From an uncultured Bacteroidaceae bacterium (lineage in GTDB: Bacteria > Bacteroidota > Bacteroidia > Bacteroidales > Bacteroidaceae), in the NCBI GenBank assembly GCA_944320955.1, contig CALUJL010000017.1, forward strand, positions 1-64,000: DNA of 64,000 bases. The letters are read 5' to 3'. Positions within the stretch are counted from its first letter, which is position 1. Each line of letters begins with the position of its first letter. A program made the position numbers and the translations under genes. The notes under the pieces were generated by a model that was not told the origin of the DNA, ran no database searches, and saw nothing but the letters and a program-made list of their open reading frames with translations. Shown here piece by piece: positions 2,132 to 59,430 of this stretch.

Positions 2132-4897
2132 CTATCTTCCCACTTCCCCGGGCAAATCGCTCATCTGGCTTGAGGCTTCCAGCCGGAATTCTTGCCCGAA
2201 AAGTTCCAGCCTGCAAGGCCCGGAAGCCGAATAACGCCACTTTCCGCCGCGTTTCTCCAGCAACACGTCGGCCCGCCCGGCAGCGCTTTCGAGCAAAACG
2301 CCCGGCACTTCCAGACTGCTGCCCGAGCCCAGGAACAGCAAACAAGCTTCCGCCTGCGGGCTGCCGCTCCACAGGGCATAGGCCGCACGGGCCTCCATCG
2401 AGTCCATCCGGCAGAGGCAGGAGGCCGAATCGCTGGAGAGGATACGGTCTTCCCGCCCGTCCCGGTGCAAGACACGGATGCCGACCGCGCTCTCCGCCCC
2501 GCCCCCGTCGACCGGGGGGAAGAGGACTTCCCGGATCGTGCCCGGCACGCGCTCCGAAGCCGGCTCGAACACGGCCACAAACGGCCGCTTCCAGGCTTCG
2601 CCCCGCTGGCGGGCCACAAAGGTCAGCGTGGGCTGTCCCTTTATATCGTAGGGCATGTCCGGGATCCGGCTCAGCCCCTCGGTCATCGGGCTGAGGGCGG
2701 AAAACACGCTCCGCTCCCCGCTTCCCTTCATCCAGAGGGTCATCGTGACATCGTCGCCGCCCCCGGGCATCCGGACGCGGAAGCCGGCGCGGACATCGAG
2801 CGCCGTGGTGGCCGACTTCTTGTCGAAGAGATAGGAATAAGCATAGAGATGGGCCCCGGCAAAGGCCAGCTCTTCGGTCGGCTGCAAGCCGAGGTCGGAA
2901 CCGTCGGCCGCCGCGAGGGTCATCTCCTGACCCAGGTTATGATAAAAATAGTCGTGCATCTTGTCGCGCCCGTCCCTGCGGCGGCTGCGGAAGATGTCGA
3001 CGTAGTAGCCCAGCGTATCCTGCACGGTGACGATACTCGTCAGGCGCTGCTGGTCGGACTGCGTCTCCGGCTCACAAAAAGCCACTTCCCCATAGCTGAC
3101 GGGCGAGTAGCTCCCCGTGCGAACTCCTGCGGCGGGAAAACATCCGAGGAGGCGGAAGGCGTGGTTGCTCTTCATGACGGGATAGGAAGAGACGCCGTCC
3201 ACGCATACGGTATTGTGCGCCGGAAACTGGCTGTAGTACTCCAGATAGTCCAAACCCGAGTAGAGCGTCTGCCCGATGCCTGCATCCGGCGCCAGGACGA
3301 GGCCGCGCCCGTAGAGTTCCATGCTGATGCCGTTGGCATGCATGTGGTTCCCTTCGCTGCCGTTGAGGGAGACCATCAGGCTGCGGCGGGGGTTCATCCC
3401 GTTGCGCTGCACGAACCAGCTGGCGTTGGGGGCGTAGAAGGTGGGTGTCACGCAGCTGTCTATGCAGGCCGCCGGGACTTCCGGGTCGGGCAAAAGGGGC
3501 TTCTGCGTGAAAAACGAGGTGACAGCCACGGGCACACGCCCCTCCCGGGAAGAAAGCGCGGCAGCCGCTGCCGGGTCGAAGAGCTTCCAGAGCGCCGTGA
3601 AGCGGCGTTCCTGGGCGGGTTTGCCATAGCGGCGGGCGTTTTCCACCATGCGGCGGAAGATGTCGCCACGCAGCGGACCGGGATGGGTATCGCCGAAACC
3701 GACTACCATGCGGTTCGGAAAAAGGTATTGCGGCATGGCCTCCACGGCACGGGGCAAGACGGGAATCAGGCGGGTCAGGTCGATGTGGAGACTGCGCGCC
3801 GCCAAGTCCGTGAAATCGGCAAAGTCGCCCACCACGACACCGGCATACCCCGGCGCTTCGGCCCATATCCCGGTGAGGGAATCGAAGCCATAGTCGGCCA
3901 GGTCACGCAGCGACCACTGCCGGATGGAGGAACGGTTCAGGAGACGATCTACATAGTAATCGCGCCCCTTCCCGTCGGCATAGGCCGAATCGGGCTCCAG
4001 GATCAAGGCTATGTCCAGGATGAAACGGGCCTCGATGAGGTTCCAGTTGTTGTGGGGCACGCCGTTGTCTATGATGTTGTCCGCCCACTTCTTGAATGCC
4101 GCGGCATAAATGTCCATCTTCTGCGGCAGGGTGTCCTGCAGATAGCCGTAGAGAAAGTCGTAAAGCGGCACAAGGGCTTTCAGCGCATCCTCGTGGATTA
4201 CCTCGAAAGTGGTCATCCCCACGAGCGTCTGCTGGTGCCCGTGGTTGAGGTCTTGCGGGACCCGGCGGTAGTAGATGCCCGTCATGTACGTATCGAACAC
4301 GCCGGCGGCCAGCCGGGCATAGGGCTCTTCGCCCGTCATCCACCAGAGGAATGCGGCATCGCGGGCTATGCCCAGGATTTCGGCATTGATGCTCTGGATC
4401 ATCGTCCCCGTCTTGCCGATGCTCACCCACTCGCGCTTCTCCGGGTCGCGCTTCGGCGCAAGCAGGAGGCCCCGGGGATCTTCGGCATAAGGCTCCAGCT
4501 GTTCCAGCGGGGGACGTACATAGTCGGTCGCATGGCTGCGGGCGCCGGAAAGCATGACCGTAGGGGCGGGCGCCTTCGCTCCTCCGGCATGGTCGAAATA
4601 TTCTCCGCGGATGAATACCTCCGTGGCATGGGTCTTCCAATACATCTGCAGGCGGGAGACGAGCCACTCCTCGCCCCGCTCCACGTAGGCATCCGTCCGT
4701 TCGCGCAGGCGGCGGAAGACTTCGCCGGCCCACGGCTCGGTACGGATCAGTTCCCACGTAGCCTCCTTGCCCGCGGGGGTGGTCAGATAGCGCGGATGCC
4801 CCGCCTCCGGCGGCAAGACAGCAGCCTCCTCCCCGGCCGCAGGAACAGAACCGGAAGAAAGGAAGAGGAGAAAAAGGAAAAACTTGCAGAACTTCAT
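2132..4897 (-). CDS. Exported heparinase II/III-like polysaccharide lyase
   Basis: About 921 residues with signal peptide MKFCKFFLFLLFLSSGSVPA. An (alpha/alpha) toroid region comes first, with HNNWNLIEARF near residue 284. It is followed by the heparinase II/III-like beta-sandwich: GSEGNHMHANGISMELYG near 515, APDAGIG, then YYSQFPAHNTVCVDG near 560. The His, Asn and Tyr in these stretches match those used by PL12/15/17/21-type lyases to cleave uronic-acid-containing chains by beta-elimination. The in-frame start at 4927 is rejected because it lies inside the terminator hairpin of the upstream GH16 gene; 4897 starts the signal peptide. Exact lyase family and substrate (uronan, alginate or glycosaminoglycan) are uncertain. 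Confidence 0.8.
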   Translation of the reverse strand: MKFCKFFLFLLFLSSGSVPAAGEEAAVLPPEAGHPRYLTTPAGKEATWELIRTEPWAGEVFRRLRERTDAYVERGEEWLVSRLQMYWKTHATEVFIRGEYFDHAGGAKAPAPTVMLSGARSHATDYVRPPLEQLEPYAEDPRGLLLAPKRDPEKREWVSIGKTGTMIQSINAEILGIARDAAFLWWMTGEEPYARLAAGVFDTYMTGIYYRRVPQDLNHGHQQTLVGMTTFEVIHEDALKALVPLYDFLYGYLQDTLPQKMDIYAAAFKKWADNIIDNGVPHNNWNLIEARFILDIALILEPDSAYADGKGRDYYVDRLLNRSSIRQWSLRDLADYGFDSLTGIWAEAPGYAGVVVGDFADFTDLAARSLHIDLTRLIPVLPRAVEAMPQYLFPNRMVVGFGDTHPGPLRGDIFRRMVENARRYGKPAQERRFTALWKLFDPAAAAALSSREGRVPVAVTSFFTQKPLLPDPEVPAACIDSCVTPTFYAPNASWFVQRNGMNPRRSLMVSLNGSEGNHMHANGISMELYGRGLVLAPDAGIGQTLYSGLDYLEYYSQFPAHNTVCVDGVSSYPVMKSNHAFRLLGCFPAAGVRTGSYSPVSYGEVAFCEPETQSDQQRLTSIVTVQDTLGYYVDIFRSRRRDGRDKMHDYFYHNLGQEMTLAAADGSDLGLQPTEELAFAGAHLYAYSYLFDKKSATTALDVRAGFRVRMPGGGDDVTMTLWMKGSGERSVFSALSPMTEGLSRIPDMPYDIKGQPTLTFVARQRGEAWKRPFVAVFEPASERVPGTIREVLFPPVDGGGAESAVGIRVLHRDGREDRILSSDSASCLCRMDSMEARAAYALWSGSPQAEACLLFLGSGSSLEVPGVLLESAAGRADVLLEKRGGKWRYSASGPCRLELFGQEFRLEASSQMSDLPGEVGR

Positions 4898-4923
4898 AGG
4901 GAGAAATATAGCGGCCGAAAAAG

Positions 4924-6874: not shown

Positions 6875-6962
6875 CGTTTCGTCATTTTTCCCGGCAAGTC
6901 CGGGGATGTCAAGTCGTTCTTTCTGCGGCGAATTTAAGAAAGTCCTGAAGAAAAAGAAAGAA

Positions 6963-7072
6963 ACGAGGGCACTTTTTCCGAAAAGTGCAGCATCTTTTTG
7001 GAAAAAGCGGCAGGACTTCTCAAAAAAAGCCCTTGCACTTTCCTCCAAAAGTGCAAGGGCTCTCTTCCATTA
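6963..7072. repeat. 22-bp degenerate tandem array, five units
   Basis: Units begin at 6963, 6985, 7007, 7029 and 7051, all exactly 22 bp. Each ends in an A-rich run after a CTTTTTCC-like core, for example ACTTTTTCCG then AAAA in unit 1. Units 4 and 5 carry complementary GC-rich halves (CCCTTGCAC and GTGCAAGGG), and their junction forms the terminator at 7028-7061. The array lies between the 3' end of the DPP IV gene and the GH43 start. Confidence 0.85.
7028..7061 (-). terminator. Intrinsic terminator of the DPP IV gene
   Basis: A 14-bp perfect stem (7028-7041 with 7048-7061, six-base loop) is followed on the minus strand by seven T residues. It lies 30 bp past the DPP IV stop and is composed of two adjacent 22-bp repeat units. 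Confidence 0.88.
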
Positions 7073-11746: not shown

Positions 11747-11874
11747 CCTACACCAGACACGACAAAACCTTTCTTTTCTCCGCGACAACGCCGGACAGAC
11801 CGCACAGGACCGTCCGGCGTTTCCCGCATCTCCCCCGCCTCCGGCGGACAAAGCAGAAGGGGAAAACCGGAAAA

Positions 11875-11940
11875 GCGGCAGTACTTTTTCCAGAAAGCGG
11901 CAGCGCTCCGCGGGAAAAGCGCTGCCGCTTTCCTACGGCC
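11875..11940. repeat. 22-bp array, three units, forming a terminator
   Basis: Units begin at 11875, 11897 and 11919, all exactly 22 bp. The second unit (GCGGCAGCGC start) and third (GCGCTGCCGC start) are complementary, giving a 14-bp stem 11894-11907 with 11918-11931. It sits about 150 bp beyond the kinase stop and before GH97, and probably acts as a terminator in either direction, although no strong T-run follows on the plus strand. The rest of this 337-bp gap (11747-12083) holds a GC-rich stretch with no frame I trust and the -7 element at 12032. Confidence 0.8.
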
Positions 11941-14091: not shown

Positions 14092-14133
14092 AAACGGCGC
14101 AGGGACTTGCCGGAAGAAGTCCCTGCGCCGTTT
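14092..14133 (+). terminator. Terminator after GH97
   Basis: A 17-bp perfect stem (14092-14108 with 14117-14133, eight-base loop) lies 11 bp past the stop codon. The plus-strand 3' side ends in TTT only, while on the minus strand four T residues follow. The stem is made of the first two 22-bp units of the adjoining array. Confidence 0.75.
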
Positions 14134-14250
14134 GCAGAAAGTGCAGGCACTTTTCCCGAAAAGCCTTGCCGCTTTTTCCCGAAACCCCAGCCACTTTTTC
14201 CATAACCCCCTGCCGTCTTTTCCCAGAGGCGGAAAGCCTTCCCGCCGGAA
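14097..14250. repeat. 22-bp degenerate tandem array, seven units in exact phase
   Basis: Units start at 14097, 14119, 14141, 14163, 14185, 14207 and 14229, with a possible further degenerate unit from 14251. Units 3-6 show the typical core (CACTTTTCCC, CGCTTTTTCC, CACTTTTTCC, CGTCTTTTCC) at the same offset. It fills the gap between GH97 and GH43. This is among the longest arrays in the window. Confidence 0.88.
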
Positions 14251-18421: not shown

Positions 18422-18509
18422 GCGGCAGCGCTTTCCTAAAAAAGCGGCTCGGCTTTTTCCGAAAAGATGCAGCACTTTTCCGAAAAAGCCGAGCCAGTTT
18501 TTTCTGCCC
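18422..18509. repeat. 22-bp array, four units, with long hairpin between convergent genes
   Basis: Units start at 18422, 18444, 18466 and 18488. Units 2 and 4 pair (GGCTCGGCTTTTTC at 18446-18459 with its complement at 18482-18495), and with one mismatch the pairing extends into unit 3, leaving a short loop. It lies between the GH43 stop (plus) and the glycosyltransferase stop (minus), so it may end both transcripts. Confidence 0.85.
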
Positions 18510-21938: not shown

Positions 21939-21964
21939 CGAAGTTATTCCGGAACGGGAAGAAA

Positions 21965-22118
21965 GCCCTGCCACTTTTCCCGAAAACCGGCAGCACTTTT
22001 CCGAAAAAGCGGCAGGACTTTTCCCTATTACACGCAAGTCTTTTCCCTATTACACGCAAGTCCAATCCCGGCGTCAGGCAAGTCTTTTTCCCGGGAAATG
22101 CCGGGCGGCGGAAAAAAA
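21965..22118. repeat. 22-bp array, seven units, with a perfect tandem duplication
   Basis: Units begin at 21965, 21987, 22009, 22031, 22053, 22075 and 22097. Bases 22019-22040 and 22041-22062 are identical 22-mers (TTTTCCCTATTACACGCAA plus GTC), showing recent duplication of exactly one period. A further 22-bp block (21943-21964) may be a decayed unit. The array lies between the divergent purT and ECF sigma genes and ends just before the ECF promoter. Confidence 0.85.
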
Positions 22119-22193: not shown

Positions 22194-22697
22194 ATGGACG
22201 CACAGAGCTTCAAGGAAACATTCCTCCCCTGCCAGGGCCGCCTCTACCGAGCGGCGCTCCGGATGACGGAAGACGGGGAGGAAGCCGCCGACCTCGTGCA
22301 GGAAACCTACCTGAGGCTCTGGGAATGCCGCCACAAGCTGCCCCCTGCGGAAAACGCGGAGGCCTATGCCGTGCGCACGCTCTGCAACCTCCACCTCTCC
22401 CTGCGCCGCAGCGCCGCCCCCGAGGCCGGCACCCTGGCGGCCGAAGACCTGCCCCTGGCCGACCCCTCCACGCCCGCCCTGATCCTGGAGCGGACGGAGG
22501 AAGGCGAAAGGATGCGGCAGCTGATGGCCCTGTTGGGCGAGCCGCAGCAGACGGTCGTCCGCATGCGCGACGCGGAGGGCTGCGAGATGGCCGAAATCGA
22601 GCAGGCCACGGGGCTGAAAGGCGCCCGCCTGCGCATGACGCTCTCGCGGGGAAGGAGAAAACTGAGAGAACTGTTCCTGAAAAGCCGAGACCTATGA
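22194..22697 (+). CDS. ECF-family RNA polymerase sigma factor
   Basis: 167 residues. Region 2 (about 1-75) has YRAALRMTEDGEEAADLVQETYLRLWE, the usual DLVQET-type helix that contacts the beta' subunit. Region 4 (about 105-160) has RMRDAEGCEMAEIEQATGL and then RMTLSRGRRKLRELF, the -35-binding helix-turn-helix. The stop overlaps the next start as ATGA, coupling it to the membrane anti-sigma-like protein. An ECF-like promoter lies upstream, so autoregulation is likely. Confidence 0.92.
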   Translation: MDAQSFKETFLPCQGRLYRAALRMTEDGEEAADLVQETYLRLWECRHKLPPAENAEAYAVRTLCNLHLSLRRSAAPEAGTLAAEDLPLADPSTPALILERTEEGERMRQLMALLGEPQQTVVRMRDAEGCEMAEIEQATGLKGARLRMTLSRGRRKLRELFLKSRDL

Positions 22698-23544: not shown

Positions 23545-24042
23545 ATGAAACACACCCCGTTTTTCCTCGCCCTGCTGCTTCTGGCAGCACTCTCCTCCCC
23601 CGGATTCGCCCAAAAGAAGCTGATCGACGACGTGCGCCGCGCATGCCCCAACGAGAGCGAATACGTGCATCTCAAAGGCGCGATGCTGGAGAAAGGAAAA
23701 GACTACCTCAAGAGTCTCGACGAAGACCTGATACCCCAAGGCGCAAAGCTGGAGGAAATCAGCACCCTCTTGCTCAACGACAAAGGAGGCGCCGAGTATC
23801 TTGCCAACCAACTGCCTTCGCTTACAGAAAAAGAAGGCTACGAAGTGAACATGGCGGTACAAATGAAAGGAGAAGTCATCTTCATCCTCAGCAAGAGCGA
23901 ACCGCTGAAGAACGCGTCGGACTACCGCTACCGCAACCACTACATCGTCTACAACCAGGACGGACCCGAGGCGCAACTGGTCTGGTGCGTCTTCCTTTCT
24001 GCCGACAAGCCCGAGGGCATGAAAACAGAAGAGCCTCAATAA
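23545..24042 (+). CDS. Small exported protein of the sigma operon
   Basis: 165 residues with signal peptide MKHTPFFLALLLLAALSSPGFA. The mature part has helix-rich sequence (AMLEKGKDYLKSLDEDLIPQ), then EEISTLLLNDKGGAEYLANQ and a beta-rich end (VNMAVQMKGEVIFILSKSE; YIVYNQDGPEAQLVWCVFL). Length and operon position resemble the DUF4252 proteins that follow sigma/anti-sigma pairs in Bacteroides, but I cannot confirm the family. It starts 5 bp after the anti-sigma stop, so it is third in the operon and may be a sensed or protective envelope component. Confidence 0.65.
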   Translation: MKHTPFFLALLLLAALSSPGFAQKKLIDDVRRACPNESEYVHLKGAMLEKGKDYLKSLDEDLIPQGAKLEEISTLLLNDKGGAEYLANQLPSLTEKEGYEVNMAVQMKGEVIFILSKSEPLKNASDYRYRNHYIVYNQDGPEAQLVWCVFLSADKPEGMKTEEPQ

Positions 24043-24092: not shown

Positions 24093-25394
24093 TTATTCCC
24101 CGCCGCCGGGCAGGGTAAGCGTGAAGCAACTGCCGCGCCCCGGCGCCGAATGCAGGTAGATGTAGCCCCCGTGTTGCAGCATGATCTGCATGCAGAGCGT
24201 CAGGCCGATGCCCGAACCACCGGGTTTCGTGGTGAAAAACGGGACAAACGCCTGCTCTTGCACCTCGGGCGCCATGCCCGGCCCGCGGTCGGCCACGCTG
24301 ATCTCCACCTCCCCGCCCGCCTTGCGGCGCAGGGCGACGCGGATGTCCGTGCCCTCCGGCGCGGCGGCCTCGCGGGCGTTCTTGATGAGATTGATGAGCA
24401 CCTGCTCCATCTGGCCGCGGTCGGCACGGAAGGTGAAGCCGGCGTAGGGCAGGTCGAACGAAAGCCGCCCGTCGCGGAACAGTCCGGCCAGGTCCGCGAA
24501 AAACTCTGCGGCGTCTATTTCCTCCGGTTGCGGAGGAGGAATGCGCGTCAGCTTCCGGTAGTTTTGCGTGAAGTCCAGCAGCCCGCGGCTGCGGCGGTAG
24601 ATGGTCTGCATGGCGCGGTGCAGGCGCTTCTGCATCCGCTCGTCGGGTTGGGACGGAAGCGGCTGCGCGCCCAGCGTCTCGCTCAGGGAGAGTATCGGGG
24701 TGAGGCTGTTCATTATCTCGTGGGTCAAGACGGTGATGAGCTTCCGCCACGAGGCATTTTGCCGTTCCTCCAGCAGGTTGCGTATGTTCTTCAGCGCAAA
24801 GGCGATGCGCACGCGCCCCTCGCCCGCCAGTTCCGTGGCCGAAAGGAGCAGTTCCCCCTCCGCCCCGCCCCCGGCGGCAGGCACCACACAGGCCTCGCCC
24901 CCGCGCCTTTGCGCCAGCCACGCCTCGGGCACACGGCGGAAGTCATGCCCCATCTGCCGCAAAGCAGCCCGGTTGCACCACTCCACCGTGCCCTCTTCCG
25001 TGGCCACCAGCAGCCCCGTGTCCACGCGGTCCAGCAGCATCTCGTAGTAGCGCAGGCGCTCGGCCTCCTCCCACTGCCGCTTCCGCTCCAGAGCGAAGAA
25101 GTATTCCAATTCGCGGCCTATCTCCCGCATCACTCCGCCGCCACGCACGGACGAAAGCGCATCGCCTCCCCCGCCGCCGGCCTCGCAAATCCGGCAGACC
25201 ATCTGCTGCAAGGCGCGCAGACTGCCCACCTGCATCCTATAAAGCGCCAGCGCGCACCCCCCGACGGCCAGCGCGCACAGCCCCGCGCTGCACCACATCT
25301 GCCGCAGCGCGAAGGCATATATCCCGGCAAAGGCCGCCAGCATCAGCAGGCAGGCAGCCGCAAAACGCAATCCCATCGGCCACATTCTCTTCAT
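24093..25394 (-). CDS. NtrB-like membrane histidine kinase
   Basis: 433 residues. The start at 25394 is set by the ATGA overlap with the regulator stop (25393-25391). Two TM helices lie at about 9-28 and 35-52, then a HAMP/PAS-like region (LERKRQWEEAERLRYYEMLLDR and TGLLVATEEGTVEWCNRAAL, seen as neighbouring stretches). The DHp helix has VLTHEIMNSLTPI (His225). The ATPase domain has NLIKNAREAA, ADRGPGMAPE and GSGIGLTLCMQI. The HEIMNSLTPI form is typical of kinases paired with NtrC-type regulators in Bacteroidetes. Co-transcribed with that regulator; the signal is unknown. Confidence 0.9.
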   Translation of the reverse strand: MKRMWPMGLRFAAACLLMLAAFAGIYAFALRQMWCSAGLCALAVGGCALALYRMQVGSLRALQQMVCRICEAGGGGGDALSSVRGGGVMREIGRELEYFFALERKRQWEEAERLRYYEMLLDRVDTGLLVATEEGTVEWCNRAALRQMGHDFRRVPEAWLAQRRGGEACVVPAAGGGAEGELLLSATELAGEGRVRIAFALKNIRNLLEERQNASWRKLITVLTHEIMNSLTPILSLSETLGAQPLPSQPDERMQKRLHRAMQTIYRRSRGLLDFTQNYRKLTRIPPPQPEEIDAAEFFADLAGLFRDGRLSFDLPYAGFTFRADRGQMEQVLINLIKNAREAAAPEGTDIRVALRRKAGGEVEISVADRGPGMAPEVQEQAFVPFFTTKPGGSGIGLTLCMQIMLQHGGYIYLHSAPGRGSCFTLTLPGGGE

Positions 25395-26767
25395 AAGCCC
25401 CATTTCTCCATCTTCCGGTACAGCGCATAGCGCGTGATGCCCAGCATCTCCGCCGCGCGGGTCACGTTCATTCCGCACAATTCCAAAGCCCTCTTCACCG
25501 CGTTCCGCTCCAGTTCTTCCAGATTGAGCACCTCCGAGGCCGACTTGCGGGGCGGCGCGGGCGCATCGAGCAGGAAGTCGGAGGCATGGAGCACGTAGCT
25601 TCCGCAGAGAATCACTGCCCGCTCCACGGCATGCTGCAGCTCCCTCACGTTGCCCGGCCAGGGGTATCGCTCCAGTTTAGCATAGGCTTCGCGGCTGATG
25701 CCCCGTATCTCTTCCTTATTATACTTGCGCACGTAGCGCCCGAGGAAGTAGTCGGCCAGCAAACGCACGTCGCCCTCCCGCTCCCGGAGCGGGGGAATGC
25801 GGATTTCCACCGTATTGATGCGGTAAAAGAGGTCTTGCCTGAAGGTTTCCTCCTGTACGCGGCGGCGCAAGTCGGCATTCGTGGCGCAAATCAGGCGCAC
25901 ATCGATGGGCTTCTCCTGCGTCCCGCCGAGACGGACTATGCGCTTTTTCTCCAGCGCGGTCAGCAGTTTGACCTGCGCGGGGAGGGAAAGGTTGCCTATC
26001 TCGTCCAGAAAGAGCGTGCCGCCCTGCGCCAGTTCCATACGCCCCGGCTTGCCCGAGCGGCGCGCGTCGGTGAAAGCGCCTTTTTCGTAGCCGAAGAGTT
26101 CGCTTTCGAAGAGACTTTCGGGCACGCTCCCCAGGTCTATTTCCACAAAGGGCGCCGCGCTGCGCCGCGAGGCCTTCCACAATCGCCGGGCGAGGACGTC
26201 TTTTCCCGTCCCGTTCTCCCCCAAGAGGAGAATGGGGGCGTCCGTGTCGCGCAACTTGCCGATGGTTTCGCCAATCTGCTTCATGGCCGCCGACTCCCCG
26301 ATGAGGGGCGGCAGCGCTTCGCCCGCATCGGCGCTCAAGGCCTCCACGCGTTCTTCCAGCCGGTCCACCGCGTCTTGCGAGGCGCGCAAGCGCATGGCGG
26401 AAAAGAGCGTGGCCAGGAGTTTCTCTTTCTCCCACGGTTTGGACACGAAGTCCACGGCGCCCGCCTTGATGGCCTGCACCGCCTTGTCCGTATCGGCATA
26501 GGCCGTCATCATGACCACCGCCGCCCGCGCGTCGAGGCGCAGGATTTTCTGCAGGCAGTCCAGCCCCTCGCGGCCATTCACCGTGTCGAGCGTGAAATTC
26601 ATGTCCAGCAAGACGACGTCCGGCCTAAAGTCCTTGATAAAATGCTCGATGCGCTCGGGCGAAAGCATTACCTTTATCTTCTCGGCATGCGGCTCGAGCA
26701 GCAGGCGGAGCGCAAAGAGCACGTCGCGGTTGTCGTCGATTATCAGAATCTTCCCTAACTTGTCCAT
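25391..26767 (-). CDS. NtrC-family sigma-54-dependent response regulator
   Basis: 458 residues. The receiver domain (1-120) has ILIIDDNRD, Asp55 in VVLLDMNF and Lys in FVSKPWEKE. The AAA+ domain (about 150-380) has Walker A LGENGTGKDV, ELFGYEKGAFTDA (the sigma-54 contact loop, GAFTDA in place of the common GAFTGA), and Walker B GGTLFLDEIGNL. The C-terminal Fis-type helix-turn-helix has NVTRAAEMLGITRYALYRK. It should activate a sigma-54 promoter, and such a sequence lies at 26911-26926 ahead of the divergent exporter operon. The start at 26767 is chosen from the MDKLGKILIIDD alignment and the -7 element just upstream. Confidence 0.93.
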   Translation of the reverse strand: MDKLGKILIIDDNRDVLFALRLLLEPHAEKIKVMLSPERIEHFIKDFRPDVVLLDMNFTLDTVNGREGLDCLQKILRLDARAAVVMMTAYADTDKAVQAIKAGAVDFVSKPWEKEKLLATLFSAMRLRASQDAVDRLEERVEALSADAGEALPPLIGESAAMKQIGETIGKLRDTDAPILLLGENGTGKDVLARRLWKASRRSAAPFVEIDLGSVPESLFESELFGYEKGAFTDARRSGKPGRMELAQGGTLFLDEIGNLSLPAQVKLLTALEKKRIVRLGGTQEKPIDVRLICATNADLRRRVQEETFRQDLFYRINTVEIRIPPLREREGDVRLLADYFLGRYVRKYNKEEIRGISREAYAKLERYPWPGNVRELQHAVERAVILCGSYVLHASDFLLDAPAPPRKSASEVLNLEELERNAVKRALELCGMNVTRAAEMLGITRYALYRKMEKWGL

Positions 26768-26789: not shown

Positions 26790-26797
26790 CAAAGATA
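26790..26797 (-). promoter_or_regulatory. -7 element of the NtrC-like regulator gene
   Basis: Minus-strand TATCTTTG fits TAnnTTTG, 23 bp before the ATG at 26767. The palindromes at 26820-26854 cover its -33 and further upstream region, so the regulator may control itself. Confidence 0.5.
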
Positions 26798-26819: not shown

Positions 26820-26854
26820 GTGCGTTTTCGCACGAAAAACGTGCAATTCCGCAC
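26820..26854. promoter_or_regulatory. Paired operator palindromes, likely NtrC-type activator sites
   Basis: Two copies of GTGC-N6-GCAC, at 26820-26833 (GTGCGTTTTCGCAC) and 26841-26854 (GTGCAATTCCGCAC), have centres exactly 21 bp apart, two helical turns. They stand 57-91 bp upstream of the sigma-54-like element, the normal place for enhancer sites of NtrC-type dimers, and next to the regulator gene itself. Confidence 0.65.
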
Positions 26855-26910
26855 AAAAGCCGCAGCATTCAGAACGACCCAATAAGCTGGTTTACAAACA
26901 AATGCAGGAT

Positions 26911-26926
26911 TGGCACGGATTTTGAA
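26911..26926 (+). promoter_or_regulatory. Sigma-54-like -24/-12 promoter of the ABC exporter operon
   Basis: TGGCACGGATTTTGAA matches TGGCACG-N4-TTGCW at all fixed positions but one (the C of the -12 GC is A). It ends 26 bp before the ATG at 26953. Position between an NtrC-family regulator and the operon supports function. Confidence 0.6.
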
Positions 26927-26952: not shown

Positions 26953-28479
26953 ATGACCTGCCGAAAACACCTCTACCTGCTGCTCTCCCTCCTGCTCCCC
27001 ACCGCAGGCCTCCCAGCCGCCCCTCCGGCCGACAGCTGCGCCACGCGGGAGTGGACGCTGGAGGAGACCATAGAGCGCGCCTGCACCGCCTCGCCCGACG
27101 CGCAGGCCGCACGCCACTCCTTCCGCGCCGCCTACTGGGACTGGCGCGCCTACAAGGCCAACTACCTGCCGGCCCTGACGCTTACCTCCAACCCAAACCT
27201 CAACCGGGCCATCAACTCCGTCACGATGAGCGACGGCAGTGTGCGCTTCGTGGAGCAGAATCTGCTGACGAGCGACCTCTCCCTACAGCTCACCCAGCAG
27301 ATACCCTGGACGGGCGGCAGCGTTTCGCTCGAAACCTCCCTGCAGCGCGTCGACCTCTTCAGCGAAGGCAGCGCCTCGTGGAAGAGCATTCCCGCCAACA
27401 TCAGCTACAGCCAGTCGCTCTTCGGCTACAACTCGCAGAAATGGGAGCGCCGCATCGAACCCCTCCGCTACGAAGAGGCGCAAAAGAGCTACCTCGAAAC
27501 GATGGAGCTCGTGGCCGCCCGCGCCGTAGACCTCTTCTTCGCCCTAGCCTCGGCGCAGAGCAATTACGAAACGGCCTGCCAAAACTACGCCTACGCCGAC
27601 ACACTCTACCAATTCGCCCGCGGCCGCTACGAAATCGGCACCATCACCGAGAGCGAGATGCTCCAGTTGGAGATAAACCGCCTGAGCGAAGAGACAAACC
27701 GCCTGGACGCCCGCATAGAAGTGGAAGAGGCCACGCAGGAACTCTGCTCCTACCTGGGATTCCAGGAAGGCGAAGGGCCGAAAGCCGTGCGCATCCGCAC
27801 GGAACTGCCGGAGGTAAGCGTCGACGCCGCCCGCGCCCTCCTCTGGGCACGGGCACAAAATCCCGACATGGCCTCGCTGAAACGGCAGGCCATCGAGGCC
27901 GAGAGCGCCGTGGCGCAGGCCAAAGCCAACGCGGGCTTCAAGGCCGACCTCTACCTGCGCTTCGGACTGACGCAGACGGCCGACAATCTGGGCGAAGCCT
28001 ACCGCCGACTGCTCGACCAGCAGGTGGTCAGCGTAGGATTCACCCTCCCCCTGCTCGACTGGGGCAGGGGGCGCGGCCGCGTGCGCGTGGCCCAGTCGCA
28101 GCGCGACCTGGTGAATACACAAGTGGAGCAGAGCCGCACGGATTTCGACCAGAACGTCCGCAAGATCGTGGGCCAGTTCAACCTGCAGAACCTGCGCGTG
28201 CGCGTGGCGGGCCGCACCGACAGCACCGCCCGGCGGCGCGGCGAAGTGGCCCGCAGGCTCTACCTCCTGGGCCGTTCCAGCGTGCTCGACCTCAACGCCT
28301 CCATCACCGAAAAAGACGACGCCCGCCGCGGCTACCTCAGCGCGCTCCATACCTACTGGAGCCTCTACTACACCCTGCGCAGCCTGACGCTCTACGACTT
28401 CCTCGCCGACCGCCCCCTGCGCGCCGACTACGAAGCGCTCCTCGCCGACCGGCCCGCACCCCCAGCCCCCGCCCCCTGA
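26953..28479 (+). CDS. TolC-family outer-membrane efflux protein
   Basis: 508 residues with signal peptide (MTCRKHLYLLLSLLLPTAGLPAA). Two outer-membrane-efflux repeats are visible, each with long helices: WTLEETIERACTASPDAQAA at the start, YEEAQKSYLETMELVAARAV midway, then VGFTLPLLDWGRGRGRVRVA and RARELYLLG-like RRLYLLGRSSVLDLNASI in the second half. It forms a trimeric outer-membrane channel for the ABC exporter encoded by the next three genes. First gene after the sigma-54-like promoter. A start at TTG 26929 is possible but lies inside the expected leader. The next gene is 117 bp away, with a 22-bp repeat array in the gap. Confidence 0.88.
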   Translation: MTCRKHLYLLLSLLLPTAGLPAAPPADSCATREWTLEETIERACTASPDAQAARHSFRAAYWDWRAYKANYLPALTLTSNPNLNRAINSVTMSDGSVRFVEQNLLTSDLSLQLTQQIPWTGGSVSLETSLQRVDLFSEGSASWKSIPANISYSQSLFGYNSQKWERRIEPLRYEEAQKSYLETMELVAARAVDLFFALASAQSNYETACQNYAYADTLYQFARGRYEIGTITESEMLQLEINRLSEETNRLDARIEVEEATQELCSYLGFQEGEGPKAVRIRTELPEVSVDAARALLWARAQNPDMASLKRQAIEAESAVAQAKANAGFKADLYLRFGLTQTADNLGEAYRRLLDQQVVSVGFTLPLLDWGRGRGRVRVAQSQRDLVNTQVEQSRTDFDQNVRKIVGQFNLQNLRVRVAGRTDSTARRRGEVARRLYLLGRSSVLDLNASITEKDDARRGYLSALHTYWSLYYTLRSLTLYDFLADRPLRADYEALLADRPAPPAPAP

Positions 28480-28494
28480 GGCGGCGGGCGGAAA

Positions 28495-28583
28495 GATGCG
28501 GCACTTCTCCAAAAAAGATGCAGCGCTTTTCCCGAAAAGGTGCGGCACTTTTTCCAAAAAACCACGCAACTCTCACCGAAAAA
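28495..28583. repeat. 22-bp array, four units, inside an operon
   Basis: Units start at 28495, 28517, 28539 and 28562 (the third has one extra A, 23 bp). They read GATGCGGCACTTCTCC, GATGCAGCGCTTTTCCC, GGTGCGGCACTTTTTCC and a decayed copy, each followed by an A-run. All units have the GC-rich half in the same orientation, so no strong terminator hairpin is formed. It lies between the TolC-like and HlyD-like genes of one operon. Confidence 0.85.
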
Positions 28584-28596
28584 CCTATAGACACAC

Positions 28597-29850
28597 ATGG
28601 ACATAAAGCTAAAGAAACGGCCGTGGCTCCTGCGCCACAAGGGCTACCTCATAGGCGGGGCGTTCTTCCTGGGCCTGGCCGCCTACACCGTCAGCCTGCA
28701 GTTCGGCGCGCAGGCCATGCACGTCCCGGCCGAAAGCCTCGGCATAGCCACCGTGGAGGAGCAGGACTTCCTGGAATACATCGAGACCGAGGGGCTCGTG
28801 GAGCCCATGATTTCGCTGAAGGTCAACAGCCGAGTCAGCGGATACGTGGCGCGCATCGTGGCCGACGAGGGGATGCAGGTCGAGCAGGGCGACACTCTGC
28901 TCGTCCTCTCCAACCCCGACCTCCTCGACGACATAGAGCAGCAGGAAGCCGAGCTGCAGAAACAGCTCATCACCTACCGCCGCGAAGAACTGGAGATGGA
29001 GCAGAAATCCATCACCCTGCGCAAGCAGGTGCTCGAAAACCAGTATGAACTCCGCCGCCTGGCCGACAATTTCCGCGTCAGCCAGGAGGAATTCCGCATG
29101 GGCATCAAGAGCAAAGCCCAACTCGAGCTGGACCGCCAGGAATACGACTACAAGACGCGCGCCGCCGCCCTCGAACAGGAAAGCCTGCGCCACGACTCGG
29201 CGGCCACCGTCTTGCGCCGCTCGCTCATCGCCGCCGCCCGCCGCCAGGAAATCGAGAAGTTCCGCCGCGCCCGCGGGCGGCTGGAAGAGCTCGTCGTGCG
29301 GGCTCCCGCCTCAGGACAGCTGAGCAGCCTGCAGATAGTGCCGGGGCAACAGCTGCAGGCCGGCGGGGAAATCGGCGAAATCAAGGTGCTCGACCGCTTC
29401 AAGGTGCGCATCAATCCCAGCGAGTACTACATCGACCGCATCGCCGCGGGCCTCCCGGCGCGGGCCGTGGTGCGCGGCAAGGAGTATCCCATGGCCGTCC
29501 GCCGCGTAGTGCCCGAGGTCGTGGAGCGGAGTTTCGTGGCCGAACTCGGCTTCACGGGCGCGCCGCCCGAGGCGTTGCGCATCGGGCAGCGGATCCGCGT
29601 GCAGATCGAGATAGGCAGCCCGGAGGAGACGCTCTCCCTGCCGCGCGGCGATTTCTACAACGCCACGGGAGGACGGTGGATCTTCAAGGTGGACGAGAGC
29701 GGACACCGCGCCGTCCGCACCTACATACGCCTCGGACGGCAAAACCCCAAGCGCTACGAAGTGGTCGAAGGACTGAAAAAGGGCGACCGCGTAATAACTT
29801 CGGGCTACGCGCGTTTTGAAAATGCGGAAGCCCTGACCTGGAGCAAATGA
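28597..29850 (+). CDS. HlyD/MacA-type periplasmic adaptor of ABC exporter
   Basis: 417 residues. The N-terminus has basic residues then one TM helix (about 17-36, YLIGGAFFLGLAAYTVSL). A lipoyl-like half (LKVNSRVSGYVARIVADEGM) is followed by a long coiled-coil hairpin (about 110-230) rich in Glu, Gln and Arg, the second lipoyl half (LVVRAPASGQLSSLQIVPGQ) and beta-barrel and membrane-proximal domains (IVVRGKEYPMAV-like strands). It bridges the inner-membrane ABC permease and the TolC-like channel. Its stop overlaps a possible ABC start (ATGA at 29847-29850). Confidence 0.88.
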   Translation: MDIKLKKRPWLLRHKGYLIGGAFFLGLAAYTVSLQFGAQAMHVPAESLGIATVEEQDFLEYIETEGLVEPMISLKVNSRVSGYVARIVADEGMQVEQGDTLLVLSNPDLLDDIEQQEAELQKQLITYRREELEMEQKSITLRKQVLENQYELRRLADNFRVSQEEFRMGIKSKAQLELDRQEYDYKTRAAALEQESLRHDSAATVLRRSLIAAARRQEIEKFRRARGRLEELVVRAPASGQLSSLQIVPGQQLQAGGEIGEIKVLDRFKVRINPSEYYIDRIAAGLPARAVVRGKEYPMAVRRVVPEVVERSFVAELGFTGAPPEALRIGQRIRVQIEIGSPEETLSLPRGDFYNATGGRWIFKVDESGHRAVRTYIRLGRQNPKRYEVVEGLKKGDRVITSGYARFENAEALTWSK

Positions 29851-29888
29851 ATTCCCCAAGCAGTATAATCCTAAAACACATAAGCATC

Positions 29889-30581
29889 ATGATCAAAACC
29901 ACCGACCTTACCAAAATCTTCCGTACCGAAGAAATCGAAACCTGGGCGCTCAACCGCGTGAACATCGAGATCGAGAGCGGAGAGTTCGTAGCCGTCATGG
30001 GGCCCTCGGGCTGCGGAAAGTCCACCCTGCTCCACATACTCGGGCTGCTCGACAGCCCCTCTTCCGGAAAGCTCCTCCTCGACGGGCGCGACGTCTCCGC
30101 CCTGGGCGAAGCCGAGCGCAACAAACTCCGCAAAGGCCTGCTCGGATTCGTATTCCAGAGCTTCAATCTCATAGACGAGCTCACCGTCAGGGAAAACATC
30201 GGCCTCCCCCTGCTCTACATGGGCATCCCCCGCGAAGAACGCCAAGAGCGCGTGGAAAAAGCCATGCGCCGCATGAACATACTCCACCGCGCGGGCCACT
30301 TCCCCCAGCAGCTCTCCGGCGGACAGCAGCAGCGCACGGCCATCGCGCGCGCCGTGGTCACACGGCCCAAGCTCATACTGGCCGACGAACCCACGGGCAA
30401 CCTCGACTCAAAGAACGGCACCGAGGTGATGAACCTCCTCAGCCAGCTCCACGAGGAGGGCACCACCATCGTCATGGTCACGCACTCACGCCGCGATGCC
30501 GACTACGCCGGGCGCATCATCCACCTCTTCGACGGGAAAGTCCTGACCGACGAGACACAGAAACCCTACCGGGAATCCTGA
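29889..30581 (+). CDS. ABC exporter ATPase, MacB/LolD type
   Basis: 230 residues from the ATG at 29889 ([20 protein letters not shown]). Walker A is [12 protein letters not shown]-loop FVFQSFNLI, signature [14 protein letters not shown], Walker [13 protein letters not shown] and H-loop VTHSRRDA. All catalytic residues are present. It powers the FtsX-like permease encoded next. A start at 29847 would overlap the adaptor stop by four bases and add 14 residues; the shorter form aligns with the family. Confidence 0.93.
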
Positions 30582-30600: not shown

Positions 30601-33165
30601 ATGAGACTCTTCGCACAAAACCTCCTGCAGGCCCTGCGCGACCTGAAGAAACACGCCGCACAAGCCTCCGTCTCCGCCCTCGGGATAGCCATCTCCTCCG
30701 TGTGCCTCGCCTTCTCCCTCAACTGGCTCTGGAGCGAGACCCACCGCGACTACTTCCGCCCGGACTACGAAAACATCCACCACCTGCGCTTCCGCACCAC
30801 GGATTCTACCGCGCAATGGAAAAACTACGACCCACACATCAGCTACTACTACCAGCCGCAGCTCGACAGCCTGCTGCGCGGGGCGCGAGTGCCCTACGCC
30901 CTCTATCGGCCCTCCTGGGTGACTCAGAAACTCACCTGCGCCGACAGGCCGGAAGCCAAGGTCTACATCTCCAGCACGGATGCGGACACCGCCTTCCTGC
31001 GCATGGCGGGCCTGAAAACCCTGGCCGGCGACGCCCGACAAGCCCTCCTCCAGCCCGACAAGGCCGTCATCACCGCCTCCGTGGCGCAGAAGCTCTTCGG
31101 CTGCAGCCCGGCGGAAGCCATCGGGCGGAGCTTCGTAAGCCAGAGAATCTACCCCTCGATCTACTTCACGGAGTACGGCCACACGGTGGGAGCCGTAGTG
31201 GAAGACTGCAAAGACCCGGAGGCCACCAACCTCGGCTTCGAGGCAATCTTCCCCCTCACCGTATCGGATGACGACCGGCTGCCCAACAACAGCAATTTCC
31301 GCGTGCTCATCCATACCGACCGGCCGGAAGAAGTGACGGAAACGCTGCGCCGCATGCAAATGCACGAGCAGGACGCCGCCACCTACTGCGACCTCACGCC
31401 CCTGCGCACGCTGCACAACCTGGGCCGCGGCAAGCCGCTCCTCTCGGTATGCTTCTACCCGATCGCCTTTTGCTGCATATCGCTCATCCTGTTGCTCAGC
31501 GCGCTGGTCAACCTGACGGCCACTTACACCTCCATCTTCCTGAGCCGCTCGCGCGAATATGCCCTCCGCCACTGCCTCGGGGCTACGCGCTGGCAAAACG
31601 CGGCATGGATGCTGACGGAGACCGCTCCCGTCCTGCTCGCCGGCCTCTTCCTCGCCGCGCTCGGGACGGAGTGGTGCGACCGGTTGGACAGCGTGCCCGG
31701 CATACGGAACCACTCCTACACGGCGCTCGCCTGGGTCTATGCCCTGGCCGCCGCGCTCTACCTCGCCGGAATGGCCTACCCCGTCCATAAGATGCAGCGC
31801 CTCTACCGCGCCTCCTTCGGGCAGGGCGGCGGACGGGGCGGCAGCTCCCACGCCTGGCTGCTGGCCGTGCAGTGCTTTGCCTGCGCGCTGCTGCTCTTCG
31901 TATCCCTCGGTATGCAGCGGCAACTCTCGGGCATGATCGGCCAAGACCTCGGCTACGACCGCGAAAACCTCCTGCGCCTCCACACGGGACGGGAGAACCG
32001 CACGGGAAAAGCCGAACCCTTCAGCTACATGGGGCTGTTCTACACCTTGCCCGACGAACTGCGCAAGGAGCGAAGCGCGGGCATCACGGACGTGCTGGCC
32101 ATGCCCGCCGACATATTCAACAGCTTCACCCGCCGGCGCATGCGCGTCTACACCGAAGAAGAGGGGAACGATACGAGCGTAGGGCGGTACAACACTTCCG
32201 GAACGTTAGTAGACCGGATGAAAGACGAATTCGAGAAAGACGGCCTGCGCGTCCTGTCGCTCATCGAAGTGCCCTACCGCGCCATCGACTTCTTCCACAT
32301 CCGCGTCGGGGGCGCCGCCTCGCCCGTATGGTCCGAAGAGGGGGAACGCGAGGGCCGGGTACAGGTCATCGTCAACCCCGCCGCCGCCCGGCTATTAGGC
32401 ATAGGCGAGAAGGGCGAACGCCGGGCGCAGGCCCCGACCTATTACTCCACCCTGTACGGGGCAAACAACGCCGTCATTTTCACCGGCAGTGACCACATCA
32501 GCGAGCGGGCGCTTGATATACGCGGCGTGGCGCCGCTGCGCCTGACGGACTTCCACGAGGGGGACGACGCGCTCATGCTGGCAGGCATACCCGAGGGGAA
32601 GCACAAGTGCAACTTCGTGGAGTACGACGCCATCTACGTGCGCCACGAACCCGGCCGCCGCGAGGAGGCCGAAGAGGCCATGCGCCGTGTGCTCCGGAAG
32701 TTCGACGTGCCGGAAGACGAAATCATCATCGAACCGCTCGATGAGTACATTGCCGGGAGCTACAAGGAGGAAGCCTACTACGCCCGCCTGCTCAATGCCC
32801 TGACCGTATTCAGCCTGCTCATCACGCTCTCCGGCGTGGCCTCCATGATGCTCTACTCCCTGCGCCTGCGCCGCCGCAGCCTGGCCATCCACCGCATCAT
32901 GGGTGCCGACTTCCGCACCGTCTTCCGCCGCGAGGCGCGCACTTACCTGTGGCTCACGGCAGCCGGGTGCGCCGCCGCCTTCCTGCCGGGCTACCTGCTG
33001 ATGCGCAAATGGATGGAATATTTCCACTACGGATCCGTGCCCGGCATCGGGCTGATGCTCGCCATTTTCGCGGGGATGCTCGCCCTCGTCTGGGCAATCG
33101 TCTACCTGCAAGTACGGAAGGCCATGAACGAGAAACCCGTCGAAGTGCTCCGGCCCGAGTCGTGA
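30601..33165 (+). CDS. MacB/FtsX-type ABC exporter permease
   Basis: 854 residues. TM1 near residues 21-41 is followed by a periplasmic MacB-like core, then a group of TM helices around 283-310, 340-365 and 380-400 with the FtsX motif REYALRHCLGATRWQ. A second half begins with a TM near 420-440, has another large periplasmic part, and ends in three TM helices (about 730-850) with RRRSLAIHRIMGADFRTVF. This duplicated FtsX layout (about 800 residues) is normal in Bacteroidetes, where such operons often sit next to an NtrC-like pair. The export substrate is unknown; peptides, lipids or antimicrobials are possible. Confidence 0.9.
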   Translation: MRLFAQNLLQALRDLKKHAAQASVSALGIAISSVCLAFSLNWLWSETHRDYFRPDYENIHHLRFRTTDSTAQWKNYDPHISYYYQPQLDSLLRGARVPYALYRPSWVTQKLTCADRPEAKVYISSTDADTAFLRMAGLKTLAGDARQALLQPDKAVITASVAQKLFGCSPAEAIGRSFVSQRIYPSIYFTEYGHTVGAVVEDCKDPEATNLGFEAIFPLTVSDDDRLPNNSNFRVLIHTDRPEEVTETLRRMQMHEQDAATYCDLTPLRTLHNLGRGKPLLSVCFYPIAFCCISLILLLSALVNLTATYTSIFLSRSREYALRHCLGATRWQNAAWMLTETAPVLLAGLFLAALGTEWCDRLDSVPGIRNHSYTALAWVYALAAALYLAGMAYPVHKMQRLYRASFGQGGGRGGSSHAWLLAVQCFACALLLFVSLGMQRQLSGMIGQDLGYDRENLLRLHTGRENRTGKAEPFSYMGLFYTLPDELRKERSAGITDVLAMPADIFNSFTRRRMRVYTEEEGNDTSVGRYNTSGTLVDRMKDEFEKDGLRVLSLIEVPYRAIDFFHIRVGGAASPVWSEEGEREGRVQVIVNPAAARLLGIGEKGERRAQAPTYYSTLYGANNAVIFTGSDHISERALDIRGVAPLRLTDFHEGDDALMLAGIPEGKHKCNFVEYDAIYVRHEPGRREEAEEAMRRVLRKFDVPEDEIIIEPLDEYIAGSYKEEAYYARLLNALTVFSLLITLSGVASMMLYSLRLRRRSLAIHRIMGADFRTVFRREARTYLWLTAAGCAAAFLPGYLLMRKWMEYFHYGSVPGIGLMLAIFAGMLALVWAIVYLQVRKAMNEKPVEVLRPES

Positions 33166-33359
33166 GCCTCCCCCGCCCCGTCCGGCGCAGGCACTTGTCC
33201 CCGCGGCAACCGCCGCCCCCGCCGCGCCCCCATCCGCCTCTCCCCGCCGGGAGGGGCGGATTTTCCATTCCTCCGCACCACCCGCTTCCCCCGGCCGCCG
33301 GGCCGGGAAAAGAAGTCCCCGCCCGCCCCGGAGAAAGAAGCAGGCAAACAAAAGAAAAA

Positions 33360-33512
33360 CCTTACCGCTTTTTCCCAAAAGCGCCATATCTTTTTCCGGA
33401 AAGTGCTGCATCCTTTTCCAAAAAGTGCTGCATGTTTTTCCGAAAAGCCCAGCCACTTTTTCCGAAAAGCCCCAGTGCCGTCTGCAGACGGCGCAAGGAC
33501 TTTTCCATCCGC
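33360..33512. repeat. 22-bp array, about seven units
   Basis: Exact 22-bp units start at 33381, 33403, 33425, 33447, 33469 and 33491; a 21-bp copy precedes them at 33360. Units two and three are nearly identical (GTGCTGCATCCTTTTCC and GTGCTGCATGTTTTTCC). Across the last boundary lies the 16-bp perfect palindrome GCCGTCTGCAGACGGC. The array occupies the middle of the 634-bp gap between the ABC permease and ispF; 33166-33359 is very GC-rich and I see nothing in it. Confidence 0.85.
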
Positions 33513-44146: not shown

Positions 44147-44255
44147 GGAAACGGACTTTTTTTGCACCTTTCCGGCGTCCGGACCGCCCAAATCCGGCCC
44201 CGTTCGGCCCCAGCCCCCGCACTACCGGCAGCCGTGGCCTGCAGCGCCCTCCTCA

Positions 44256-44295
44256 AAAAGTGCCTGCGCGGTTTGCAGACGGCGCAGGCGCTTTT
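44256..44295 (-). terminator. Terminator of the RND efflux operon
   Basis: Arms 44256-44269 and 44282-44295 (14 bp, one G-T pair, 12-base loop), followed by TTTTT on the minus strand. It is about 175 bp past the last gene of the operon and is built from two neighbouring 22-bp units. Confidence 0.75.
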
Positions 44296-44347
44296 CCGGA
44301 AAACTCCCTGCACTTTTCAGGAAAAGTCCTGCCGCTTTTTTCTGGAA
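44260..44347. repeat. 22-bp array, four units
   Basis: Units start at 44260, 44282, 44304 and 44326 and show cores GCGCGGTTTGCAG, GCGCTTTTCCGG, GCACTTTTCAGG and CCGCTTTTTTCTGG. Possible decayed units flank it at 44238 and 44348. The TGCAGACGGCGCA string in units 1-2 recurs in the array near 33480. It lies between the efflux operon end and the rplM promoter. Confidence 0.82.
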
Positions 44348-44471
44348 GCCTTATGGAAACAGGCACAAAATAACGGGGAAGAACGCAATGTTCCTCCCCG
44401 CTTCTGCTTCATGTCCGGCTAAAGTCCGCTCCGGCAAGCCGTGCAAGAGTTTATCCCTTAGCGCCTGAAGA

Positions 44472-50204: not shown

Positions 50205-50296
50205 AAAAGCGGCAGGGGAAACCTCTCTTTCCCCTGCCGCTTTTCGCAAAAAGTGCCTGCGCTTTTTCGCTTTTGGAGCAACGCTTTTTCCGCCCG
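50205..50296. repeat. 22-bp array with a 17-bp hairpin between divergent genes
   Basis: Units start at 50209, 50231, 50253 and 50275. The first two pair as a 17-bp perfect stem (50205-50221 with 50228-50244, six-base loop). The gap 49953-50411 is bounded by divergent starts, so no gene ends here. The rest of the gap holds the RND -7 element, a short ATATATAAATA stretch near 50150 and the uvrA-like -7 element at 50310. Confidence 0.8.
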
Positions 50297-59298: not shown

Positions 59299-59430
59299 CC
59301 TGCGCCCCCGCCGGAGAAAAGCCCCGGCACCGTCCGGAAAAAGCGGTAGCACTTTTTGCAAAAAGTGCTTGGGGTTTTCGGGAAAAGCCCTGCCGCTTTT
59401 CGGAAATAGCGGCTGCGCTATGGTGTAATA
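59299..59430. repeat. 22-bp array, five to six units, between divergent genes
   Basis: Units start at 59299, 59321, 59343, 59365, 59387 and (decayed) 59409, all 22 bp. Clear cores are GCACTTTTTGC, then GGGGTTTTCGG and CCGCTTTTCGG, each followed by an A-run. The gap 59229-59572 also holds the two divergent -7 elements at 59447 and 59530; nothing else is seen. If the 59447 promoter drives the ABC operon, the array lies in its leader RNA. Confidence 0.82.

Follow-up and report, generated by a model that had tools for sequence, protein, structure and literature searches.

The gap at positions 26820–26926, between the divergent genes of an NtrC-type regulator and a TolC-family channel, very probably serves, on the comparisons that follow, to control an inducible tripartite ABC exporter through that regulator together with sigma-54. 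It lies in a stretch of 64,000 nucleotides from an uncultured Bacteroidaceae bacterium, which we call the window. That its arrangement of sites is real, and far above chance, is confirmed, and conservation of that arrangement in relatives is decisive. A sequence-only reading of the same DNA had proposed a dedicated two-component system driving the exporter via sigma-54. Comparison of sequences, from which the sites, their spacing and linkage, the covariation of HTH and half-site and the presence of RpoN all come, supports that proposal well: the domains of the regulator, RpoN, the fixed spacing and an operator that accompanies the exporter each argue for it. The further suggestion of that reading, that stress or a compound induces the exporter, is an assumption that goes beyond the sequence.

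Paired palindromes and a sigma-54-like element

What does the gap contain? Two palindromes of the form GTGC-N6-GCAC, GTGCGTTTTCGCAC at 26820–26833 and GTGCAATTCCGCAC at 26841–26854 (without strand; identified by pattern, genome scan and the relatives' alignment), stand 21 bp apart, start to start, and 91 to 57 bp upstream of the TGG of a sigma-54 element, exactly as had been read off the sequence. So placed, they would share one face of the DNA, two helical turns apart.

How unusual is such a pair? Single palindromes are mildly enriched in the 64-kb window (4 against 1.37 expected) and single-site statistics there are weak; the weight lies with the pair and its conservation. Two palindromes with a gap of 0–30 bp occur once in the 2.65-Mb genome, against no match for the reversed-pattern controls, and in none of 100 first-order Markov simulations of the window. 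The genome search for further pairs that the sequence-only reading had called for returned the window's pair alone.

The predicted sigma-54 promoter TGGCACGGATTTTGAA (TGGCACG-GATT-TTGAA; 26911–26926, + strand) is supported by consensus match, by the relatives' alignment and by the genome pattern scan. The G of −24 is at 26913 and the −12 position at 26925, and transcription is predicted to start at about 26937; the first exporter ATG follows at 26953, 26 bp beyond the element as originally described. The single mismatch then reported is, when set against TGGCACG-N4-TTGCW, the C of −12, a base normally strongly conserved in sigma-54 promoters. Across the 64-kb window, matches with one or two mismatches number 13 against 10.2 expected, that is, without enrichment.

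Is the missing C an anomaly? Of 43 sequences, 39 have A, G or T in its place, mostly as TTGA or TTGG; the four that keep the C have TTGCT (three) or TCGCA (one). Among 33 non-redundant sequences the −24 GG is invariant and the TTG of −12 nearly so, at the correct spacing. The pattern TGGCACR-N3-TTTGNW has two copies in the genome and none in the controls: the window's, and TGGCACGGGCTTTGTT at G000:C29:220806–220821 (L175), 94 bp before the dnaK start codon. The latter carries TTTGTT, and a −12 element without GC therefore seems normal in this genome. This strict match suggests that dnaK may be under RpoN control, in agreement with the inclusion of chaperone genes among the predicted sigma-54 targets of Bacteroidota (PMC12316311). 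The genome searched has a single RpoN gene (501 aa; PF04552, 2.0e-47; RpoN box ARRTVAKYR). Absence of rpoN had been named beforehand as grounds for abandoning the proposal; one complete RpoN is present, and the proposal survives.

Conservation among relatives

One scan yielded 52 related loci, nearly all from Bacteroidales (Bacteroides, Phocaeicola, Paraprevotella, Tannerella, Dysgonomonadaceae and others). Without three loci from Alphaproteobacteria and another whose sequence is cut short upstream of the regulator, 48 can be assessed. In 42 of these the palindromes lie 20–21 bp apart and are followed by TGGYAY...TTG at exactly 69 or 70 bp from palindrome 2. Two more (L011 and L054) have the full set before a tolC separated from the regulator, making 44 of 48; in the four exceptions (L046, L048, L050 and L061) the regulator has no exporter next to it. 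The alignment of the gap in relatives, which had been proposed as a check, thus finds palindromes and −24/−12 conserved, at fixed spacing, across genera. Within the palindromes of the 33 non-redundant sequences the outer bases change hardly or not at all; the inner N6, like most of the spacer, is variable.

Does the operator travel with the regulator or with the exporter? The exact pattern, found in three of 393 genomes across the order, is too strict for diverged sites, and a relaxed pattern was used instead at the level of the family. The pair plus TGG is present in 15 of 121 family genomes, all 15 of which carry a regulator at least 51% identical, and in none of the 95 family genomes that have no such regulator (Fisher 1.4e-12, uncorrected for relatedness). 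In two genomes (G455 and G434) the closest regulators (69–70%) are encoded apart from the exporter, without an adjacent operator; there the operator lies before tolC. Since it stays with tolC when the regulator is elsewhere, we conclude that the sites belong to the exporter promoter.

Complete operators were also seen in other settings. At L171 (G502:C58), near 4809–4904, a second full operator with its sigma-54 element precedes two genes for thioredoxin/TlpA-like secreted proteins, not an exporter. One exporter cluster (L170, in G480) has two complete operators, at ~1.3 kb and 16 kb, the second before a separate ABC ATPase gene.

The regulator and a probable promoter of its own

The regulator gene (25391–26767, − strand) encodes an NtrC-family protein with a receiver, an AAA+ domain (PF00158, 1.9e-63) bearing a GAFTDA loop and a Fis-type HTH containing ITRYALYRK, as judged by Pfam, motifs and HTH; the AAA+ and Fis domains had been recognized correctly at the outset. 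The phospho-acceptor Asp, Walker A and B and the arginine finger are present, and the AAA+ machinery is intact. True sigma-54 activators number three in this genome, the regulator included. One of the other two has no receiver domain and lies among housekeeping genes; the second is close to the end of a contig, and neither a kinase nor an exporter is seen around it.

The regulator gene probably has a housekeeping-type promoter of its own. Its probable −7 element, TATCTTTG (26790–26797, − strand), was picked out by the conserved CAAAnnTA, and we take it to be of the Bacteroidetes TAnnTTTG type, of which CAAAnnTA is the reverse. The box lies 30–32 bp from palindrome 1 in 39 of 43 aligned sequences, the window included, and palindrome 1 would adjoin the −33 region of this promoter, which suggests autoregulation. 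Might the palindromes serve mainly that purpose, the exporter promoter using another activator? The 30–31 bp from palindrome 1 to a CAAAnnTA box facing the regulator gene, seen in nearly all orthologs, would fit such a role. On the other hand, G455, G434, L011 and L054 keep the pair before tolC, at the usual sigma-54 spacing, and not at the regulator, and the 69–70 bp from palindrome 2 to the promoter are fixed. An operator that stays with a displaced tolC, at a fixed distance from its promoter, led us to reject autoregulation as the sole function, and as the main function we consider it very improbable.

The palindromes might also act in RNA, as the hairpins of an attenuator or terminator, each being an inverted repeat that could fold into a stem. 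To this we give virtually no credence: both lie upstream of the two predicted promoters, and so should be in neither transcript, and their loop-proximal bases vary, the constant feature being the 21-bp phase. Position and phase together led to its rejection.

What of the GAFTDA loop? It stands in place of GAFTGA in the window's regulator and in all 49 Bacteroidales orthologs scored. Exporter-type paralogs have GAFTDA, GSFTDA or GAYTDA. In the other activators of this genome the loop is GAFTGA or GSFTGA, as it is in the more distant paralogs, L163 excepted. GAFTGA has been called invariant in sigma-54 activators, in a 2025 survey that kept only activators with that motif (PMC12316311), so that its stated filter would drop the GAFTDA group. 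Natural loop variants that function are reported, however, and in Desulfovibrio GAFTDA is listed as tolerated, among those expected to work (PMC4641369). From its sequence we judge that the regulator works like an EBP yet departs from the strict GAFTGA motif.

We consider it very unlikely that the GAFTDA regulator does not work with sigma-54 at all and activates or represses a sigma-70-type promoter, TGGCAC...TTTGA being incidental. Although the loop departs from the canonical one, the −12 C is not conserved, and the authors of a study of VfmH left open whether its Gly-to-Asp change costs the sigma-54 contact (PMC10714721), nothing outside the palindromes is as well conserved as the −24 GG and −12 TTG, which keep a fixed spacing over several families, and the AAA+ machinery is intact. 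Moreover, the TTTGTT at the genome's one other strict match precedes dnaK, and chaperone genes are predicted sigma-54 targets in this phylum (PMC12316311).

A tie between the missing −12 C and GAFTDA was also considered and rejected: the GAFTDA-type promoters L117 and L123–L126 have GC, and the dnaK site has GT.

How might each regulator recognize its own sites? Exporter-linked paralogs of the regulator (~46% and ~40% identity) have other paired or repeated palindromes at the same place, with half-sites that, read by eye, are of the types TGTC(TAAT) or GTCC(AAT), TGTAAA and TGTCCG. The recognition helix changes with them: R[FY]xLYRK accompanies GTGC, RQTLYNK accompanies TGTC/GTCC, RPTLY accompanies TGTAAA and R[AQ]ALYRR accompanies TGTCCG. 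Of the sequence evidence for binding of the palindromes by these regulators, this covariation of helix and half-site is the best.

The exporter operon and the sensor kinase

The operon (+ strand) opens with a TolC-family outer membrane channel (26953–28479; OEP, 1.2e-30), whose orthologs are mostly divergent from the regulator. There follow an HlyD/MacA-type periplasmic adaptor (28597–29850; PF16576, PF13437), an ABC ATPase of the MacB/LolD/DarD type (29847–30581; PF00005, 2.7e-36; Walker A, LSGGQ and Walker B) and an FtsX/MacB-type permease with a duplicated FtsX domain (30601–33165; PF02687 in two stretches, PF12704; matching the ADOP-like duplicated permease below cut-off). A tripartite exporter had been predicted, and these four components, the set expected of a MacAB-TolC-type system, indeed share one operon divergent from the regulator. 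The nearest NCBIfam equivalog of the adaptor is DarC, below cut-off. Scores fall short of the equivalog cut-offs for identity with DarBCD (DarC 133.8 of 450, DarD 276.6 of 375, DarB 30 of 700), the match to the NCBIfam MacB model is below its cut-off, and no solved structure matches the permease by sequence. Across L010–L057, TolC and HlyD are kept with the regulator, the order of the exporter genes varies (tolC-hlyD-ftsX-ftsX-ABC) and the permease shows only weak similarity in most loci, L168 alone having one that is closely orthologous to the window's.

The sensor histidine kinase (24093–25403, − strand; HATPase_c, 1.1e-25) starts with MGLMKRM, overlapping the end of the regulator gene. It has two membrane helices joined by a loop of ~4 aa, a PAS-like region and a HATPase domain; its H, N, G1 and G2 boxes are present. 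By hydropathy, the loop between the helices is 1–13 aa in all ortholog kinases scored but L048, in which a single helix is called. Two TM helices, an outer loop below ~25 aa and no outer sensor domain are the marks of an intramembrane-sensing kinase, and by hydropathy this kinase shows them. Within the literature searched, no paper was found on intramembrane kinases in Bacteroidetes with ABC exporters.

Beyond the kinase gene, at 22194–22697 and 23545–24042 of the window, are an ECF-type sigma factor gene and a gene for a small secreted protein without Pfam match. The window also holds a degenerate 22-bp repeat unit, approximately GGAAAAGTGCGGCACTTTTTCC, in dispersed arrays of one to four units, with 18 copies in the main repeat family. 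The arrays lie at 6957–7052, 11847–11920, 14109–14232, 18438–18489, 21959–22054, 28489–28564, 33353–33494, 44239–44351, 50232–50263 and 59337–59419; one is inside the exporter operon, between tolC and hlyD, and another just after the permease gene. A pair similar to these arrays lies near the activator gene at L155.

A third element, the IHF-like dyad

What lies between palindrome 2 and the promoter? Ortholog columns and paralogs reveal an IHF-like 25-bp dyad, YAWNNNNYTGATWATYARNNNNTTR (26880–26904, centre 26892, without strand), which matches at 13 of 17 positions. Its centre precedes the T of the −24 element by 19 bp, and it occupies columns 60–84 from palindrome 1. The dyad consists of two back-to-back matches to WATCARNNNNTTR, the IHF consensus, at a fixed offset in orthologs and paralogs. 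The control region had been described as complete; that description was right about the palindromes and the sigma-54 element and overlooked both this dyad and the regulator's own promoter. The sequence-only reading also passed over the covariation of helix and half-site, the kinase's near lack of a loop and the GAFTDA of the regulators, together with the absence of the −12 GC from most of the promoters.

The mean score of the dyad is 14.0 of 17 in the orthologs and 7.3 (sd 2.0) in shuffled spacers, a comparison that is partly circular because the motif was derived from the orthologs. The 52 paralog loci provide an independent test: scores of at least 12 of 17 number ten at offset 19 and three at offset 20, where other offsets have ~0.4 each, apart from a smaller peak of six matches at offset 30. 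Paralogous exporter promoters with other enhancers have the dyad at the same offset. Of 27 strict matches to TGGCACG-N3-TTTGCW, only L188 and L191, both before adaptor genes, carry it well. We rejected the dyad as a general feature of sigma-54 promoters, since it is absent from most strict sigma-54-like matches elsewhere; its rarity among them indicates that it belongs to exporter promoters. Matches to 25-bp dyads like TATNNNNTTGATTATCARNNNNTTA, the IHF-like motif again, number 35 and 20 in two family genomes (G418 and G438), often without a sigma-54 site.

We assume that the dyad is a site for an IHF/HU-family protein; the genome has six genes of that family. Bending of the DNA at this position is standard in sigma-54 systems, and a bend at the dyad of this promoter may be expected by inference from its sequence.

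A proposed mechanism

How might these elements work together in an exporter promoter driven by the NtrC-type regulator and sigma-54? The membrane kinase would phosphorylate the regulator, dimers of which would bind both palindromes through their Fis-type HTH, and the bound regulator would form an AAA+ ring. An IHF/HU-family protein would bend the DNA at the dyad, whose centre is ~45 bp upstream of the start, and the bend would bring the ring onto RpoN–RNA polymerase at 26911–26926. Hydrolysis of ATP would then open the promoter at ~26937, leading to transcription of tolC-hlyD-ABC-ftsX. Occupancy of palindrome 1, which abuts the −33 region of the regulator's promoter, would probably also limit synthesis of the regulator. 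Phosphorylation and binding of the regulator, the DNA bend, autoregulation and both the inducing signal and the cargo are what we infer for this system.

Relation to known systems

The arrangement resembles NtrC/ZraR-type systems (E. coli glnAp2, zraP, NtrC1) in its receiver–AAA+–Fis HTH regulator, in a putative paired palindromic enhancer ~100 bp upstream and in the predicted −24/−12 promoter, and the dyad sits where IHF usually does. It differs from them in the GAFTDA loop, in a −12 that is mostly TTTGA/TTTGG, in its symmetric double IHF-like site and in the enhancer distance, which is fixed here and variable there. The operator is GTGC-N6-GCAC, whereas that of NtrC/ZraR-type systems is GCAC-N7-GTGC.

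The exporter combines TolC, an HlyD/MacA adaptor, a MacB/DarD-type ATPase and a MacB/FtsX permease, as do MacAB-TolC and the darobactin exporter DarBCD; compared with these it has a separate ATPase and a permease with a duplicated FtsX domain. The DarBCD proteins are its nearest named relatives, below cut-off.

In the Bce modules of Firmicutes (BceAB–BceRS), intramembrane-sensing kinases are coupled to FtsX-family permeases (PMC10314905). Here too an FtsX-family permease goes with a kinase whose two TM helices have hardly any loop outside the membrane, and signalling through the exporter is plausible by analogy. Unlike the Bce modules, with their OmpR-type regulators, this one has a regulator of NtrC type that is predicted to be sigma-54-dependent; its Pfam domains are NtrC-type, and an OmpR-type regulator is absent. 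The exporter, moreover, is tripartite, with TolC and HlyD. Bce modules are further marked by a complex of kinase and permease, with transporter flux as the signal; the likeness seen here is one of gene content and kinase layout.

A statistical survey has already linked sigma-54 to FtsX/COG0577 ABC antimicrobial-peptide transporters in Bacteroidia, at the level of the class (PMC12316311, 2025). Our system, like those of that set, joins a predicted sigma-54 promoter to an FtsX-type ABC permease; unlike ours, the survey's main text has no palindromes, UAS or IHF. New here are the control region itself with its strict geometry and cognate regulator, the code that operators follow and the clade with GAFTDA.

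Could the pattern be more general? It is possible, though we hold it doubtful, that Bacteroidales have an expanded clade of GAFTDA sigma-54 activators with their own palindrome pairs, a shared IHF-like dyad and near-loopless kinases that read the state of an ABC exporter, a Gram-negative sigma-54 counterpart of Bce in which GAFTDA is matched to promoters without the −12 GC.

What does the finding mean for these bacteria? A large group of regulators without the exact GAFTGA probably still uses sigma-54. What was a statistical association of sigma-54 with FtsX-type exporters in gut Bacteroidia becomes a set of testable base-level operators, regulators and predicted starts. The code that relates recognition helix to operator could assign other regulators to their pumps, and it bears on the envelope defence of gut commensals.
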